Source: an uncultured Latescibacterota bacterium
Lineage (GTDB): Bacteria > Latescibacterota > UBA2968
Direction of reading: 5' to 3'
Assembly (NCBI GenBank): GCA_958295785.1
Contig: OY282377.1
Coordinates: forward strand, 448,394 to 512,393
Length of the DNA: 64,000 nt
Every line of letters starts with the position of its first letter. Positions within the stretch are counted from its first letter, which is position 1. The position numbers were made by a program, and so were the translations under genes. The notes below the pieces were generated by a model. The model ran no database searches. It was not told where the DNA came from and worked only from the letters and a program-made list of their open reading frames with translations. Shown in pieces: positions 43,284 through 50,868 of the stretch.

Positions 43284-43910
43284 TTAGGCCATTGGTCGTT
43301 GCGTTAGGTCCAGTTCCATCTCGTCGCGCGCTGGCGCGAATTCGTGACCTTCTCGAGACGGTTCCCTGAAAGTTATGGCCCAGTAATAATCGTCCAGCGG
43401 AACAAAGACGCCGTTCTCCTCTGCCCATTGGCGCATTCTTCGGTAACAAGAATGTTCCCATGACAAAACTTCTACTTTCCAACCTCGTCGGTGCATGCGC
43501 TCCAATGTGCTGTGAAACCCTCTGCCCTCGTAATAGCCAGCACCGTCACCGGTCAGCAGTGCCACAATGCCAGGGTCGCCGTTGTAATCCCAACCGTGCT
43601 CCAGCATACGCAACTGTAGCCAGCGGTCGGGGATTTCCCGTTCTCCCCGGTCTGGGGCACCTCGATCATATAGCTGGACTTCCACACCTTGATTCTCCAG
43701 CCGGTTCCACAATTGGCGCATTTCCGGCGGGACAGAGCCTGCGGCGACTGCTTTTTCCAGTGGACGGTCAGCATGTGCCAAGCGCAGCATATTGTCGAAA
43801 TTGATACGAACCAAATAGCGGGCACCAGAGGTGCCGTCTCGCTGTGCAGCAATGCGCTGCGCTTCGTTGAAAATATTGGAATTATCCCAATAGACGAATA
43901 CGCCGCTCAT
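43284..43910 (-). CDS. NYN-domain (LabA/DUF88-like) putative RNase
   Basis: A 208-residue protein with a NYN/PIN-like fold: GVFVYWDNSNIF holds the first acidic residue, and GDPGIVALLTGDGAGY the TGDGD-like acidic motif, followed by GWKVEVLSWEHS and CYRRMRQWAEENGVFVPLD. NYN proteins are metal-dependent RNases or RNA-processing factors. The start ATG 43910 (after GGGAG) fits the domain better than the upstream ATG. No partner gene is near; its 3' end touches an inserted sulfatase fragment. Confidence 0.8.
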   Translation of the reverse strand: MSGVFVYWDNSNIFNEAQRIAAQRDGTSGARYLVRINFDNMLRLAHADRPLEKAVAAGSVPPEMRQLWNRLENQGVEVQLYDRGAPDRGEREIPDRWLQLRMLEHGWDYNGDPGIVALLTGDGAGYYEGRGFHSTLERMHRRGWKVEVLSWEHSCYRRMRQWAEENGVFVPLDDYYWAITFREPSREGHEFAPARDEMELDLTQRPMA

Positions 43911-44177
43911 AATGATATCTCCCTCAAAACAGATGATCCACAAACGCATTTCCGATCATATCTTCGACGCCATTGGACGACCACAAGGGCCTTTGGGAGG
44001 CAAGACAACAGACGCCGAATGATCACAACGTTGGCAATACGATACCATATTTGAGCACAGCAGGCAAGCCTCTTTGCCGATATAACGCGAACCAAAGGAT
44101 AGAGAGACTTGCCAAAAAGCGCGTTTAGAGATAGATTGTCCCCTAAACCAAAACACATCTTCAGAAAGGATCGCATC

Positions 44178-45786: not shown

Positions 45787-47661
45787 ATGCCCCTGATTCA
45801 ACTCAAAGACATTTGGAAATCCTACGGCGCTTATGACGTGTTGCGGGGGGTCCGTTGGCAAATTGATCCGGGAGATCGCATCGGGCTTGTCGGCCCCAAT
45901 GGGTGTGGCAAAACCACGCTGTTTCGGCTCATCACCGAAGAAAGCCCGCCCGATGACGGGCAATTGCACCGGCAGCGCGGTCTCAACATCGGCTTTTTGG
46001 CGCAGGAACCCACCTTTGATCCAACGCACAGCGTTATGGGCGCGATGCTCAATGCGTTTGCCGATCTTTTGGCCCTGCAACATCGCCTACTGGCGTTGGA
46101 AAAGTCTATGGGCGCGGGCGAAATTTCCGATGCTGTGCTCAATGACTACGGCGATCTCCGAGACCAGTATGAGCATCTGGGCGGGTACGCAACCGAAGCG
46201 CGTGCCAAAGCCATTCTCTTTGGGCTGGGATTTCGCCAGACTGATCTAAAATTGCCAACCCGAGTGCTCAGCGGCGGGCAAAAGAACCGCTTGGTGCTTG
46301 CCCAATTGCTCGGTCGAGAACCCGATCTCTTGCTCCTCGACGAACCGACCAACCACCTCGATTTGCAAGCTATTGAATGGCTCGAGTCTTTTCTCGCGGA
46401 TTATGCCAAGGCATTTGTCGTTATTTCGCACGACCGCACCTTCCTCGACCGCACTGTGACCAAAATTGCGGACTTGGAACGCGGCAGGGTTGAACCGTAT
46501 TCGGGCACGTATTCCTTTTATGTCGCAAAAAAAGCACAGCGCCGCGCCCAGCAGCAAAAAGCCTATCGCGCACAACAAGCGCACATTGAACGAACCGAAG
46601 ACTATATTCGCCGAAACATCGCCGGGCAAAAAACCAAACAGGCGCAGAGCCGGCGCAAAGCACTTGAAAAACTCGACCGCATAGACAGGGTGACACAACA
46701 GCGCGACATCGACCTGTCATTTACCACCACCACGCGGGGAGGCGACCGGGTCTTGCAGGTTGAGAACCTCACGAAAAAATACGACAATCGCCCCCTGTTT
46801 TCCGATCTCAATTTCACATTGTGGCGGGGCGACCGCCTCGGCATTTTGGGCCCCAACGGAGCGGGCAAATCCGTGCTTTTGAAAATTCTGATCGGCGAAC
46901 TCGCGCCCGATGCAGGCCGCGCGATCATGGGCAAGGGGCTCGACATCGGTTATTACGCGCAAACCCGTCAGGACCTCGACCCCAAGTTGAGTGTTCTCGA
47001 AGAAATCTGGTCGCTCACGCCCCAGGTGCCAGAAGAGGAGATCAGAACTTTTTTGGGCGCCTTCCTGTTTTCGGGGGATGAGGTCGAGCGCCAGACGGGC
47101 GCGCTCAGCGGCGGGGAACAAAGTCGCGTTGCCCTGGCCAAACTCATGCGCGTGCCCCTCAATGTGCTCGTGCTCGACGAACCGACCAACCATCTGGACA
47201 TTGCATCGCGCAATGTGCTCGAAAGCGCGCTCGAGGCGTTTTCGGGCACGGTGATCGCGGTTTCGCACGATCGGTATTTTCTCAACCGCTTGGTCAATCG
47301 CCTGCTGGCGCTCGGCGATGGCAAGTGGCAATTGATAGATGGCAATTACGACGCCTATCAACGCGAGATGCAGGGGGCAGAAATGCCGACCGTGCAAGTT
47401 GCGCCCAAAACGCAAACCGACTATCAAAGCCGCAAGCGCGCCATGCGGCATCGGCAAAAACGAGAACGCCGCGCCATCCAATTGGAAGAAGCCATTGCCG
47501 CGTTGGAGGAACAGGTCGGTCAACTCGCCGAAGAAATGGCACGCGACGATCTGGCCACGGACTGGCATCGCCTAAGAGAACTGGCGACAGAAAAGGACGC
47601 TGTTCAAAAGAAAATAGATCGCTTGTTCGCGGAATGGGAAGTTTTGGAGCGGGAAAAATAA
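45787..47661 (+). CDS. ABC-F family ATPase (Uup/EttA type)
   Basis: A 624-residue protein with two ABC domains and no membrane segments. Walker A GPNGCGKTT and GPNGAGKSV, signatures LSGGQKNRL and LSGGEQSRV, Walker B LLLLDEPTNHLD and VLVLDEPTNHLD. The interdomain linker (AQRRAQQQKAYRAQQAHIERT) is the ABC-F P-site tRNA-interaction motif region. A C-terminal coiled coil (EEAIAALEEQVGQLAEEMA) is Uup-like. Such proteins act on ribosomes to rescue or protect translation. No clear ribosome site precedes ATG 45787. Confidence 0.92.
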   Translation: MPLIQLKDIWKSYGAYDVLRGVRWQIDPGDRIGLVGPNGCGKTTLFRLITEESPPDDGQLHRQRGLNIGFLAQEPTFDPTHSVMGAMLNAFADLLALQHRLLALEKSMGAGEISDAVLNDYGDLRDQYEHLGGYATEARAKAILFGLGFRQTDLKLPTRVLSGGQKNRLVLAQLLGREPDLLLLDEPTNHLDLQAIEWLESFLADYAKAFVVISHDRTFLDRTVTKIADLERGRVEPYSGTYSFYVAKKAQRRAQQQKAYRAQQAHIERTEDYIRRNIAGQKTKQAQSRRKALEKLDRIDRVTQQRDIDLSFTTTTRGGDRVLQVENLTKKYDNRPLFSDLNFTLWRGDRLGILGPNGAGKSVLLKILIGELAPDAGRAIMGKGLDIGYYAQTRQDLDPKLSVLEEIWSLTPQVPEEEIRTFLGAFLFSGDEVERQTGALSGGEQSRVALAKLMRVPLNVLVLDEPTNHLDIASRNVLESALEAFSGTVIAVSHDRYFLNRLVNRLLALGDGKWQLIDGNYDAYQREMQGAEMPTVQVAPKTQTDYQSRKRAMRHRQKRERRAIQLEEAIAALEEQVGQLAEEMARDDLATDWHRLRELATEKDAVQKKIDRLFAEWEVLEREK

Positions 47662-47665
47662 AAAA

Positions 47666-47694
47666 TTCTCCCTCCTCAAGGCGAGGAGGGAGAA
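47666..47694 (+). promoter_or_regulatory. Hairpin covering the ribosome site of the small ORF
   Basis: TTCTCCCTCCTC, loop AAGGC, GAGGAGGGAGAA: a perfect 12-bp stem. The 3' arm carries the GGAG-type ribosome site of the small ORF starting at 47700, so folding would block it. It could also be a minus-strand terminator (TTTTTTATTTTT follows on that strand) or end the ABC-F transcript. Confidence 0.5.
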
Positions 47695-47699
47695 GGGAT

Positions 47700-47891
47700 G
47701 TGACCCGTGAGTTTTCCAAGTTCTTCAAAATATTGCGTTCAACACCTGCGTACTCACGCGATTCGCCGCATAGGATAACAAATTTGAACGCAAGGAGAAA
47801 GGGATTGGCGCCGAGACCCGTGCATTATGCGGCTACATATATCGAGGTTTCGCGGTATCTTGGAGGACGGATGGACGAATCGACAAATTGA
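47700..47891 (+). CDS. Possible 63-residue basic protein leading the AAA/TOPRIM cassette
   Basis: From GTG 47700 the frame reads M-T-R-E-F-S-K-F-F-K-I-L-R and ends with HYAATYIEVSRYLGGRMDES-T-N, stopping 11 nt before the AAA ATPase ATG. The stop TGA overlaps the AGGAGG of that gene. A shorter start, TTG 47805 after AAGGAG, would give 28 residues. The composition looks protein-like (basic, with an amphipathic end), but no family is recognised. It may be a leader, an antitoxin-like regulator or a relic. Confidence 0.4.
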   Translation: MTREFSKFFKILRSTPAYSRDSPHRITNLNARRKGLAPRPVHYAATYIEVSRYLGGRMDESTN

Positions 47892-47902
47892 GGAGGCTTG
47901 TG

Positions 47903-49078
47903 ATGTTGCAGGAATTTCGAGTCGATAATTTTAAGTCTTTGATCAACATTGTATTTAAGCCGCAGGAAATCAATCTGCTACTCGGCAGGAACAATTCCGG
48001 GAAAACCAATTTTTGTCAGGCTTTGCAGTTTGTGGGGGCCAGTTCCCTTTTCCCGCTCAATGAGTGTGCCGAACGGGTTGCGGGTGGGCTGTTTGGGATG
48101 ACCAATTTCGCATTTGATAAATCCGCCATTGATTTTTATGTCCGAGCACAGGTGCCTTATGAAGGGGAAAATTTGGTCTTTGAATATGAACTGACCATTT
48201 CGCCGCCGAAGAACCCCATTGGCGAAGCCACTGTCAGGGTTGACGCTGAGCGTTTGATGGCTACGGGTGGCGGGTTTGACAAAACCATTTTGCTCGAAAA
48301 TATCTCTGGCCCGAGTCGGCTTTTGGATGAGAAAAATTTTATGGACAGAACGGCGAATTATGTTGAAATGACTGTGCCGAGAGATACGACGATGTTGCAA
48401 TGTCTCTACGATTTGGAAACCAATTCACGGGCCAATCACTTCAAAAGCTATCTGAACAACTGGATTTGTTACGACCTTTCGCCAACTGCAATGAGAGGGT
48501 CGGATTTTAAGCCCAATGAAGTTTTTCTCAATAGCAGTGGCGGCAATCTCGCCTCGGTGCTGTATCGGTTGAAGACCAGCGACGAGCGAAATTATCGCAA
48601 GTTGCTAAAGGTCATTCAAGAGATCGAACCCAAACTCGATTTGATCAATTTTCAAATTTTTTCGGGTAGCAGGGCCGTGTTTATGTGGTTTGAAGATTCT
48701 GATGGACATTCATTGAACGCTGAAAATGCCTCGAACGGAACCCTGCGCTTTTCAGCCCTCGCGTATATTTTTTTGATTCAACCGGCAATGGATTTGCGAC
48801 CATTGCTCATGATCGAAGAGCCGGAAAACGGCATCTATGTCGGTTTTCTAAAAACACTGCTCGAAATGGCGAGCCAGTCTCCTGCCCGTCCCCAGATCGT
48901 TTTTACCTCACACGCGCCTTATTTTGTCGATCTTTTCGACGAGCATTTGGACGGCATTTTTGTGCTCAATCAAGCTGAACATCACACGTCAATTAGGCAA
49001 CCCAATGTGGATGATATGAAGGTACGCCTTGAACATTTTCCATTGGGAGAGCAACATTTTCGGGAGATGTTGGGATGA
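47903..49078 (+). CDS. OLD-like AAA ATPase (AAA_21 type), probable defence ATPase
   Basis: A 391-residue SMC/OLD-like ATPase. LQEFRVDNFKSLINIVF is the family N-terminus and LLLGRNNSGKTNF (about 26-38) the Walker A. Near the C-terminus come LRPLLMIEEPENGIY (Walker B) and QIVFTSHAPYFVDLF (H-loop region). Unlike full OLD proteins it has no fused TOPRIM domain; the next gene seems to provide it. Start ATG 47903 with AGGAGG 6 nt upstream. The stop overlaps the next start (ATGA). ATPase/nuclease pairs of this kind include PARIS, Septu and Gabija defence systems. Confidence 0.85.
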   Translation: MLQEFRVDNFKSLINIVFKPQEINLLLGRNNSGKTNFCQALQFVGASSLFPLNECAERVAGGLFGMTNFAFDKSAIDFYVRAQVPYEGENLVFEYELTISPPKNPIGEATVRVDAERLMATGGGFDKTILLENISGPSRLLDEKNFMDRTANYVEMTVPRDTTMLQCLYDLETNSRANHFKSYLNNWICYDLSPTAMRGSDFKPNEVFLNSSGGNLASVLYRLKTSDERNYRKLLKVIQEIEPKLDLINFQIFSGSRAVFMWFEDSDGHSLNAENASNGTLRFSALAYIFLIQPAMDLRPLLMIEEPENGIYVGFLKTLLEMASQSPARPQIVFTSHAPYFVDLFDEHLDGIFVLNQAEHHTSIRQPNVDDMKVRLEHFPLGEQHFREMLG

Positions 49079-49659
49079 AGATCGGGTATTATGTGCAGGG
49101 CGATACAGATGAAGCCGTTGTCAAGGGGCTTGCACAACGCTGGTGCCCCGATGCAGAATTGGCAGAAGGACAATTCCGGGGTTCTTCAAGGGAATCTTTC
49201 AAGCGGGAGATTGCCAAATCACTTTGGGATTTGAAAGGTCAAGGGTGTGATATTTTGGTTGTACTAACAGATGCAGACGCAAATTCCCCGCGCGTTGTCA
49301 AAAGCCGCGGATCAGATAAAGTTCCCACAGACTGTAAGCATTTGACCCTGTTTGGCGTGGCAGATCGAAATATTGAATGCTGGCTGGCGATTGACCGAAA
49401 CGCGCTCGCTCGTGAACTCGCGTGTCCTGTGGCGGAGATTCCAAGCGATGACCCTTCTCATTTTGTCAAACGGCGTTTTGGGTTGACCAACCGAGATGAA
49501 AAACAGGAGGCAAAAGAGCGCGTTCGGGATTATGTCGCACGAGCATCATTGCGATCATGGATTGCAGGATCAAATTCGTTTCGAGATTTCTACAATGATG
49601 CCCGCCGTTTAGCCACTCAAACTGGGTGTTCGATTCCAAATGAATGGGATACCCAATAA
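49075..49659 (+). CDS. TOPRIM/DUF4276-like nuclease partner of the AAA ATPase
   Basis: A 194-residue protein. IGYYVQGDTDEAVVKGLAQR resembles the first TOPRIM glutamate segment (usually VEGxTE; here QGDTDE, Glu 13), VLTDADANS gives the D-x-D pair (Asp 66 and 68), and ADRNIECWLAIDRNAL matches the N-I-E-x-W-L segment of OLD-type TOPRIM domains. Such domains cleave nucleic acids with metal ions. It overlaps the ATPase gene by four bases, so the two should be made together. It is followed by a strong terminator shared with fabZ. It is not the DUF4435-type AriB of PARIS on sight, though remote relation is possible. Confidence 0.68.
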   Translation: MKIGYYVQGDTDEAVVKGLAQRWCPDAELAEGQFRGSSRESFKREIAKSLWDLKGQGCDILVVLTDADANSPRVVKSRGSDKVPTDCKHLTLFGVADRNIECWLAIDRNALARELACPVAEIPSDDPSHFVKRRFGLTNRDEKQEAKERVRDYVARASLRSWIAGSNSFRDFYNDARRLATQTGCSIPNEWDTQ

Positions 49660-49685: not shown

Positions 49686-49714
49686 GGGCCTGTTCTATAT
49701 CTCAGAACAGGCCC
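49686..49714. terminator. Strong bidirectional terminator
   Basis: GGGCCTGTTCT, loop ATATCTC, AGAACAGGCCC, an 11-bp perfect stem. On the minus strand it is followed by a long T run, ending the bamA-skp-fabZ transcript; from the plus side it ends the AAA/TOPRIM cassette. Confidence 0.85.
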
Positions 49715-49745: not shown

Positions 49746-50183
49746 TTACAAATCTTCGCGCCGTGCGAACATCGCCATCAATTCGGCTTCTGCGGCGACT
49801 TTGCCATCGACTGTGGCTTTGCCGTGGCCCTTGCACACATTGCGGCGTCTTTGCCCGATTTCGACTTCGAGTAGCAACTGGTCGCCGGGCACCACCTGCT
49901 GTCTGAAACGCGCTTTGTCAATGCCCATAAACAAGGGGATCGAATCGCTCTCTCGTCCATCGCTCATCAAAATCGCAGCCGCTTGCGCGAGGGCCTCGAC
50001 AATGAGCACGCCCGGCATGAGCGGATTGCCGGGAAAATGGCCTTGGAAAAACGGCTCATTCGCCGACACATTTTTGTACGCGACCAACCGCTCGCCAGGG
50101 GTCAACTCGGTAACGCGATCCACCAGCAAAAAAGGATAGCGGTGCGGAAGAATTTTTTGGATGTCCACGGCGTTCAGAATCAC
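49746..50183 (-). CDS. fabZ: 3-hydroxyacyl-ACP dehydratase FabZ
   Basis: A 145-residue hot-dog-fold dehydratase of fatty-acid elongation. [20 protein letters not shown] is the family N-terminus; [20 protein letters not shown] has the catalytic His and Glu. The start is GTG 50183, 6 nt after a GGAG site; the 48 codons upstream do not resemble FabZ. It follows skp, but lpxD and lpxA, often found next to it, are absent. Confidence 0.93.
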
Positions 50184-50316
50184 GGTGTGCTCCAATGGAA
50201 AGCGGTCGGCGTTACGGGGAAAAGGCAAAAGAATGACGATGGGCTGTCTAACCGCTAACGGCTGACGCTTCCTTTGGGCCGGGCGGATGAGCGGGGACTG
50301 CCTACTGCCTACTGCC

Positions 50317-50868
50317 TCACTGACCACTCTCCTTCGCCTTGGCTTCGAGGTCTTTGGTCAGGGCTTCGATAACCCTATCGGTCAAATCGTGTGCCTCTTT
50401 CGCATAGGCCAGGGCCGTTGTATTGAGCACAAAATCAAAGCCCTCGTCTTCGGCCACCTGCTTGATGATCTCATTCACCGTTTGAATAATCGGCTCGGAC
50501 AATTCCGCGGTCTTGCGTGCGAGACTGCCTCTTTGGGGATCGCTGGCTTCTTGCACAAACCGTTGCATTTCCTGTTGTTTTTTTACAATGGCCTGTTGTT
50601 CTTCTTGTTTGCGTTTGTCACTCAACAACAGGGATTGGCGTTCGTAAGTTTCCTGCATCTTGGCCAATTCGTTTCGCATGGTGCTGATCTCGCGCCCGAG
50701 TTCGTCTTCGTAACGGCTAAATTCCCTCAACGCATCTTGATAGGGTTTGTACTGATCCAAAATTTTTTGCGAATCGATGTACCCCAGCTTGATCTCGGCA
50801 CCGGCAGAACTGCCCATGCCGACCAGTGCCAGAGACAGCGCGACCAAAAACATGCGACAGCGTGTCAT
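50317..50868 (-). CDS. Periplasmic chaperone Skp/OmpH
   Basis: A 183-residue OmpH-family protein. A signal peptide ([19 protein letters not shown]) is followed by [15 protein letters not shown] and a long charged coiled coil (about residues 45-120). The C-terminal [23 protein letters not shown] segment forms the trimer body. It holds unfolded outer-membrane proteins for BamA, whose gene is 52 bp upstream. Start ATG 50868 has GGAGGGAG before it. Confidence 0.92.

Follow-up and report, generated by a model that had tools for sequence, protein, structure and literature searches.

A two-gene candidate defence cassette of the HEC-01 type between housekeeping genes of a Latescibacterota bacterium

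Two coupled genes, for an OLD/SMC-type ABC ATPase and a divergent DUF4276-like protein, were found between an ABC-F ATPase gene and fabZ in a 64,000-nt stretch of Latescibacterota DNA (the window), part of a single-contig genome of 5.66 Mb. Judged by profile matches, the nearest family of the pair is HEC-01 of PADLOC. The pair thus belongs to an already catalogued kind of candidate defence system, as a divergent branch. We consider it fairly probable that the two genes form a self-contained HEC-01-type candidate-defence cassette, in which the ATPase would restrain and then trigger a Toprim-like effector. A 63-codon frame and a 12-bp hairpin upstream, which the original prediction had counted as a third part, do not belong to the cassette. 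The features are as follows (window coordinates, with the evidence in brackets).

45787-47661, + strand: ABC-F ATPase gene, neighbour on one side of the pair
47666-47694, - strand: 12-bp hairpin outside the cassette, terminator candidate of the ABC-F/fabZ junction (fold, T-tract)
47700-47891, + strand: 63-codon open frame with GTG start, judged to be no gene (profile searches, sister genomes, codon usage)
47759-47865, + strand: recurring flank DNA under the 63-codon frame (also upstream of the sulfatase locus L005 and the S9 peptidase locus L006)
47890-47896, + strand: ribosome-binding site GAGGAGG of the ATPase gene (conserved in genomes G005, G006 and G008)
47903-49078, + strand: OLD/SMC-type ABC ATPase, 391 aa, HEC-01A-like, putative sensor and restraint (PADLOC, Pfam, fold, dN/dS)
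49075-49659, + strand: divergent DUF4276/HEC-01B-like, Toprim-like protein, 194 aa, putative effector (profiles, model, dN/dS)
49686-49714, no strand assigned: cassette-closing hairpin, candidate for a bidirectional terminator (accompanies the pair in L005, G006 and contig C49 of G005)
49746-50327, - strand: fabZ gene, neighbour on the other side, convergent to the pair

The ATPase and its coupled partner

The Walker A, Walker B and H-loop motifs that had been predicted for the ATPase were all found in the sequence (GRNNSGKT, MIEEPEN and TSH), together with an ABC-signature-like SNGTLRF. The predicted model (pLDDT 87) resembled the heads of Rad50/SMC, PtuA, OLD and GajA, so that the characters of an OLD-type ABC ATPase, namely Walker A/B, signature, H-loop and an SMC/Rad50/OLD head, were present. 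The start was corrected from TTG 47888 to ATG 47903, where all relatives align. In PADLOC, HEC-01A was at the top of all models (1.3e-40, residues 6-365), followed by AriA, PDC-M07A, AbiLi (5e-18) and mad3, and Pfam gave AAA_21 (3.1e-25) and AAA_15 (9e-12). The gene is under purifying selection (dN/dS 0.20, window against sister genomes). Its stop codon TGA (49076-49078) shares an ATGA with the start ATG of the second gene (49075), confirming the overlap read earlier.

The second gene is also under purifying selection (dN/dS 0.17-0.23 in the same comparison). Its product matched HEC-01B weakly (1.4e-8), as did 13 of the 16 family members at 0.001 or better; the HEC-01A and HEC-01B matches were judged by E-value and not by the cut-offs and system rules of PADLOC. 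The window protein had no match in Pfam, falling short of the curated cut-off of DUF4276 (PF14103), and two of 16 relatives matched PF14103 with an E-value of 0.01 or better (the best being 1.9e-4). When the family profile was compared with a profile of the DUF4276 proteins of the genus, a full-length match was obtained (97.1%, E 5.9e-11, 178 columns; 0.3% in the reversed control). These comparisons place the second protein as a divergent branch of HEC-01B/DUF4276.

The Toprim domains of OLD proteins matched the DUF4276 profile at 64% (E 6e-5) and the second-protein family directly at 1%; the assignment as Toprim-like is therefore chained through DUF4276, and the protein is putatively Toprim-like on that basis. 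The strand-helix order and DxD of the predicted model (pLDDT 92.5) fit Toprim, with Gln in place of the motif-I Glu. Fold searches gave no significant match to solved Toprim structures. In the viral fold search an RloB-like protein had the best TM among the top hits (0.45), which was not significant (E 0.04). When solved-structure sequences were searched with the profile of the second protein, all hits were unrelated chains, designed TIM barrels among them. A comparable partner of ATPases of this type, RloB, was reported to be related to OLD_TOPRIM (PMC10440598).

Comparison with known systems

HEC stands for Hma-embedded candidate, a name that a passage of PMC12988326 gives with a 2024 preprint. 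HEC-01 in PADLOC-DB 2.0 consists of an ATPase and a small downstream protein, and its models match both proteins of the window. One relative of the pair (L082) is truly Hma-embedded, between HmaA (1e-194) and HmaB (2e-62), fitting the name. The window pair differs in that the match of its second protein is weak (1e-8), with no Pfam match of its own, and in that most of its relatives stand alone. In the literature searched, HEC-01 was found only in passing, and no test of its anti-phage activity and no mention of DUF4276 were found. The pair adds a divergent, multi-phylum branch to this catalogued candidate defence family, for which that literature yielded no mechanism.

PARIS (AriA and AriB) likewise has an ATPase and a Toprim-type effector as separate genes in one operon, and the window ATPase matches AriA. 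However, the effector of PARIS belongs to another family, the window ATPase is nearer to HEC-01A than to AriA by E-value, and no AriB model of PADLOC matched the second protein, even with an E-value limit of 1. The link to PARIS drawn in the original prediction stands as one of function, while the nearest family is HEC-01. The OLD-ABC protein of PARIS recognises the DNA mimic Ocr and activates AriB, which cuts tRNA (PMC12839542, PMC12409363).

RloA/RloB, AbiLi/AbiLii and AAA:Toprim_OLD pairs are also two-gene ATPase/Toprim-like systems (PMC10440598), and AbiLi is among the matches of the window ATPase. The second protein, however, groups with DUF4276, and any kinship with RloB would be tentative. 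OLD nucleases, GajA of Gabija, PtuA of Septu and the effector of retron Eco8 have the ATPase head fold in common with the window ATPase. In OLD, GajA and Eco8 the nuclease is in the same chain, unlike in the window pair, and Septu has an HNH protein as the partner. Neither GajB nor PtuB nor a retron was found at the window cassette. The earlier reading of the two genes, as an OLD-like ATPase split from a Toprim-like partner and akin to phage-defence systems, was supported.

The 63-codon frame and the 12-bp hairpin

The original prediction placed a small gene, possibly a sensor or antitoxin, before the ATPase gene, with its own ribosome site hidden by a hairpin. A system of three such parts, with translation of the first gated by the hairpin, is extremely improbable. 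The frame does exist, its stop codon and the GAGGAGG of the ATPase gene overlap, and it sits behind a strong hairpin. However, it had no counterpart in either of the pair-bearing sister genomes (G005 and G006) or in 12 further relatives with upstream sequence. The two sister genomes instead have the 5ʹ part of a divergent sulfatase gene upstream of the ATPase gene, and the other relatives have unrelated frames or none there.

The DNA under the frame is a patchwork of flank sequence. Positions 47759-47826 recur at the sulfatase locus of the same genome (L005), and 47792-47865 recur upstream of an S9 peptidase gene (L006). Gaps interrupt the frame in these copies, two in L005 (8 and 1 nt) and one in L006 (1 nt). 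Against L006, DNA identity (84%) exceeded protein identity (53%), which is the opposite of a conserved protein. The codon-usage score of the frame was non-coding (-0.27, against +0.27 for the ATPase gene), a weak test, because the second real gene scored only -0.01. When the intergenic stretch was shuffled by dinucleotides, 4% of the resulting sequences had a frame as long as this one on the same strand. By these sequence comparisons, we judged that the frame hardly exceeds chance expectation and is not a gene. Lack of the frame in relatives is the very outcome that the original prediction had named as refuting, and the proposed role as sensor or antitoxin falls with it. In published pairs of a related type, it is the ATPase that acts as sensor or antitoxin (PMC10440598, PMC12839542).

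The hairpin is a perfect 12-bp inverted repeat (arms 47666-47677 and 47683-47694), as had been noted, and its folding z is -3.1 on the + strand and -4.9 on the - strand. The purine-rich "ribosome site" before the frame is its 3ʹ arm. No T-tract follows on the + strand, and TTTTTTATTT follows on the - strand; the hairpin was therefore read as terminating leftward transcription from the fabZ side toward the ABC-F gene, as its position also suggests. A terminator of the AAAAAACTCGGC...GCCGAGTTTTTT type was found at the ABC-F/fabZ junction in all ten other genomes of the genus. Given the T-tract, translational control by the hairpin was dropped in favor of the - strand terminator.

Genome-wide, counts derived from searches placed the 12-bp hairpin at one site of the 5.66 Mb, the 3ʹ hairpin at two and AAGGAGAAAGGGATTG at three. 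Because the patterns occur at only these few places, the hairpins and flank were ruled out as a genome-wide repeat family. A known structured RNA was also rejected, the only Rfam match being at chance level (E 0.6).

Relocation of the cassette within the genus

The cassette had been predicted to be an insert among housekeeping genes. This was borne out: in ten of ten other genomes of the genus the ABC-F/fabZ junction is pair-free, with only roughly 100 bp between the two genes. Beyond them lie what we take, from the translations by eye, to be Skp/OmpH-, BamA- and ClpC-like genes. Only three of the 11 genus genomes carry the pair. In the two others, G005 and G006, the pair has 73-76% protein identity with that of the window; these two nearest pair-bearing relatives are recorded publicly as Candidatus Latescibacterota. 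The DNA that they have in common with the window extends from 47890, at the ribosome-binding site of the ATPase gene, to 49715 only.

In both G005 and G006 the pair adjoins a sulfatase gene. An S9 peptidase gene then follows in G006, and at a contig end of G005 the 3ʹ end of the pair lies beside the same peptidase gene. At the sulfatase locus of the window genome there is only debris, in which a 5ʹ piece runs straight into the final codons of the second gene with its hairpin, and in G008 an N-terminal stub of the ATPase lies beside the same sulfatase gene. Because of this debris, the stub in G008 and the pair-free junction in ten sister genomes, the intact copy in the window has probably moved to its present place between ABC-F and fabZ. 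Neither a transposase gene nor an integrase gene was seen next to the cassette. Judging from the relocation and the debris, the cassette moves between housekeeping genes without such a gene adjacent to it.

At its probable old site, the cassette has left debris or truncated ends beside a sulfatase gene (4818-4967 of L005 and 5971-6081 of L061). At 4672-4861 of L060, a cassette end lies at a contig end beside the S9 peptidase gene.

The active site of the second protein

The position of the Toprim motif-I Glu (codon 8, window 49096-49098) is Gln in the window protein and eight relatives, that is, in nine of 16 members, and the Glu/Gln switch requires at least three changes on the family tree. 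The second DxD position (codon 68, window 49276-49278) is Asp in eight of the nine Gln members and Asn in six of the seven Glu members (Fisher p 0.009, with kinship not corrected for). The pattern is not strict, because L086 and a seventeenth member, L129, combine Glu with Asp. Asp66, Arg98, Asn99 and Glu101 are invariant in 16 of 16 members.

We assume that codon 8 is equivalent to E26 of AriB. The E26A substitution abolishes the activity of AriB (PMC12409363). It is possible, though on the unlikely side, that this effector subfamily has a rebuilt active site, with an altered metal site or a non-canonical, perhaps non-nuclease reaction. With its natural variants, the family lends itself to testing whether such effectors need the Toprim glutamate.

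Distribution of relatives

A genome scan found 15 loci with the pair, two of them in the sister genomes. They belong to Latescibacterota, Planctomycetota, Gammaproteobacteria, Chloroflexota, Sumerlaeota, WOR-3 and Ignavibacteriota (seven named phyla) and to two unplaced bacteria. The ATPase gene is directly upstream of the second gene in all 15; the overlap is 4 nt in 14 of them and, in L087, a single base common to the stop and start codons. Most relatives are among housekeeping genes and not in defence islands. Cassettes lie between nuoE and nuoF (L078, 4286-7906) and between guaB and guaA (L080, 3603-8121), codirectional with both genes in each case, after purH (L086) and before valS (L084). 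Among 392 sampled Planctomycetota genomes the pair was present in two, one being the genome on which the search was centred. No relatives were found in the phage, plasmid and viral collections at the sensitivity used.

Proposed mechanism and alternative explanations

We propose that the ATPase dimerises like an OLD/SMC head and keeps its translationally coupled partner, the Toprim-like DUF4276 protein, in an inactive state. On sensing an infection cue, it would release or activate this protein, which may then cleave DNA or an RNA, for instance tRNA, so that phage growth would stop. The cassette would probably work like PARIS or AbiL. Dimerisation, the defence role, restraint with triggering and the nuclease activity are taken by analogy from related systems; what the sequences themselves show is the two genes, how they are coupled and conserved, the family they belong to, the folds predicted for them and the relocation in the genus. 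The proposal is supported by the HEC-01 matches, the Hma-embedded relative, the constant pairing with an ATPase, the DUF4276 match, the ATPase fold like that of PtuA, OLD, GajA and Rad50, purifying selection, and patchiness with relocation. Points against it are the housekeeping surroundings of most relatives, the lack of a significant fold match to solved Toprim structures, the direct match of 1% to OLD Toprim, and Gln in place of Glu.

The pair could instead be a toxin-antitoxin or selfish module, in which a toxic partner is kept in check by the ATPase and the genes persist by post-segregational killing or mobility, any defence being incidental. The overlap of the two genes, their patchy occurrence, the relocation and the debris would fit, and AAA ATPases neutralised Toprim_OLD toxins, one of them of the RloB type, in growth assays, behaving as toxin-antitoxin pairs (PMC10440598). 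We regard this as unlikely, given the relative embedded in an Hma defence system, the lack of relatives in the plasmid and phage collections searched and the gene order with the ATPase first. The two readings are also not exclusive, as the same study suggests that its own pairs are abortive-infection systems (PMC10440598). A housekeeping pair for DNA or RNA repair, with a Rad50/RecF-like ATPase and a Toprim-like partner, would agree with the Rad50/SMC-head fold and with the many relatives among housekeeping genes. It is very unlikely, however, because a core function would not be as patchy as three of 11 genus genomes and two of 392 Planctomycetota genomes, and the pair has relocated and decayed elsewhere.

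ATPase-DUF4276 pairs in the genus

Besides the window pair, which is invisible to Pfam, the genome of the window has 12 DUF4276 matches, 11 of which are directly behind an ATPase match. Across the genus, an ATPase gene directly precedes 45 of 46 DUF4276 genes. The eleven further pairs in the window genome (G000) are the maximum in the genus, the other genomes having 1 to 8. Examples on its contig C1 are at 327408-328720, 633227-634950, 1612814-1614149, 1810114-1811435 and 4757397-4761452. Elsewhere in the window, 43284-43949 on the - strand encodes a 221-aa protein with no Pfam match at 1e-10, the start of which resembles, by eye, an NYN-type nuclease domain.
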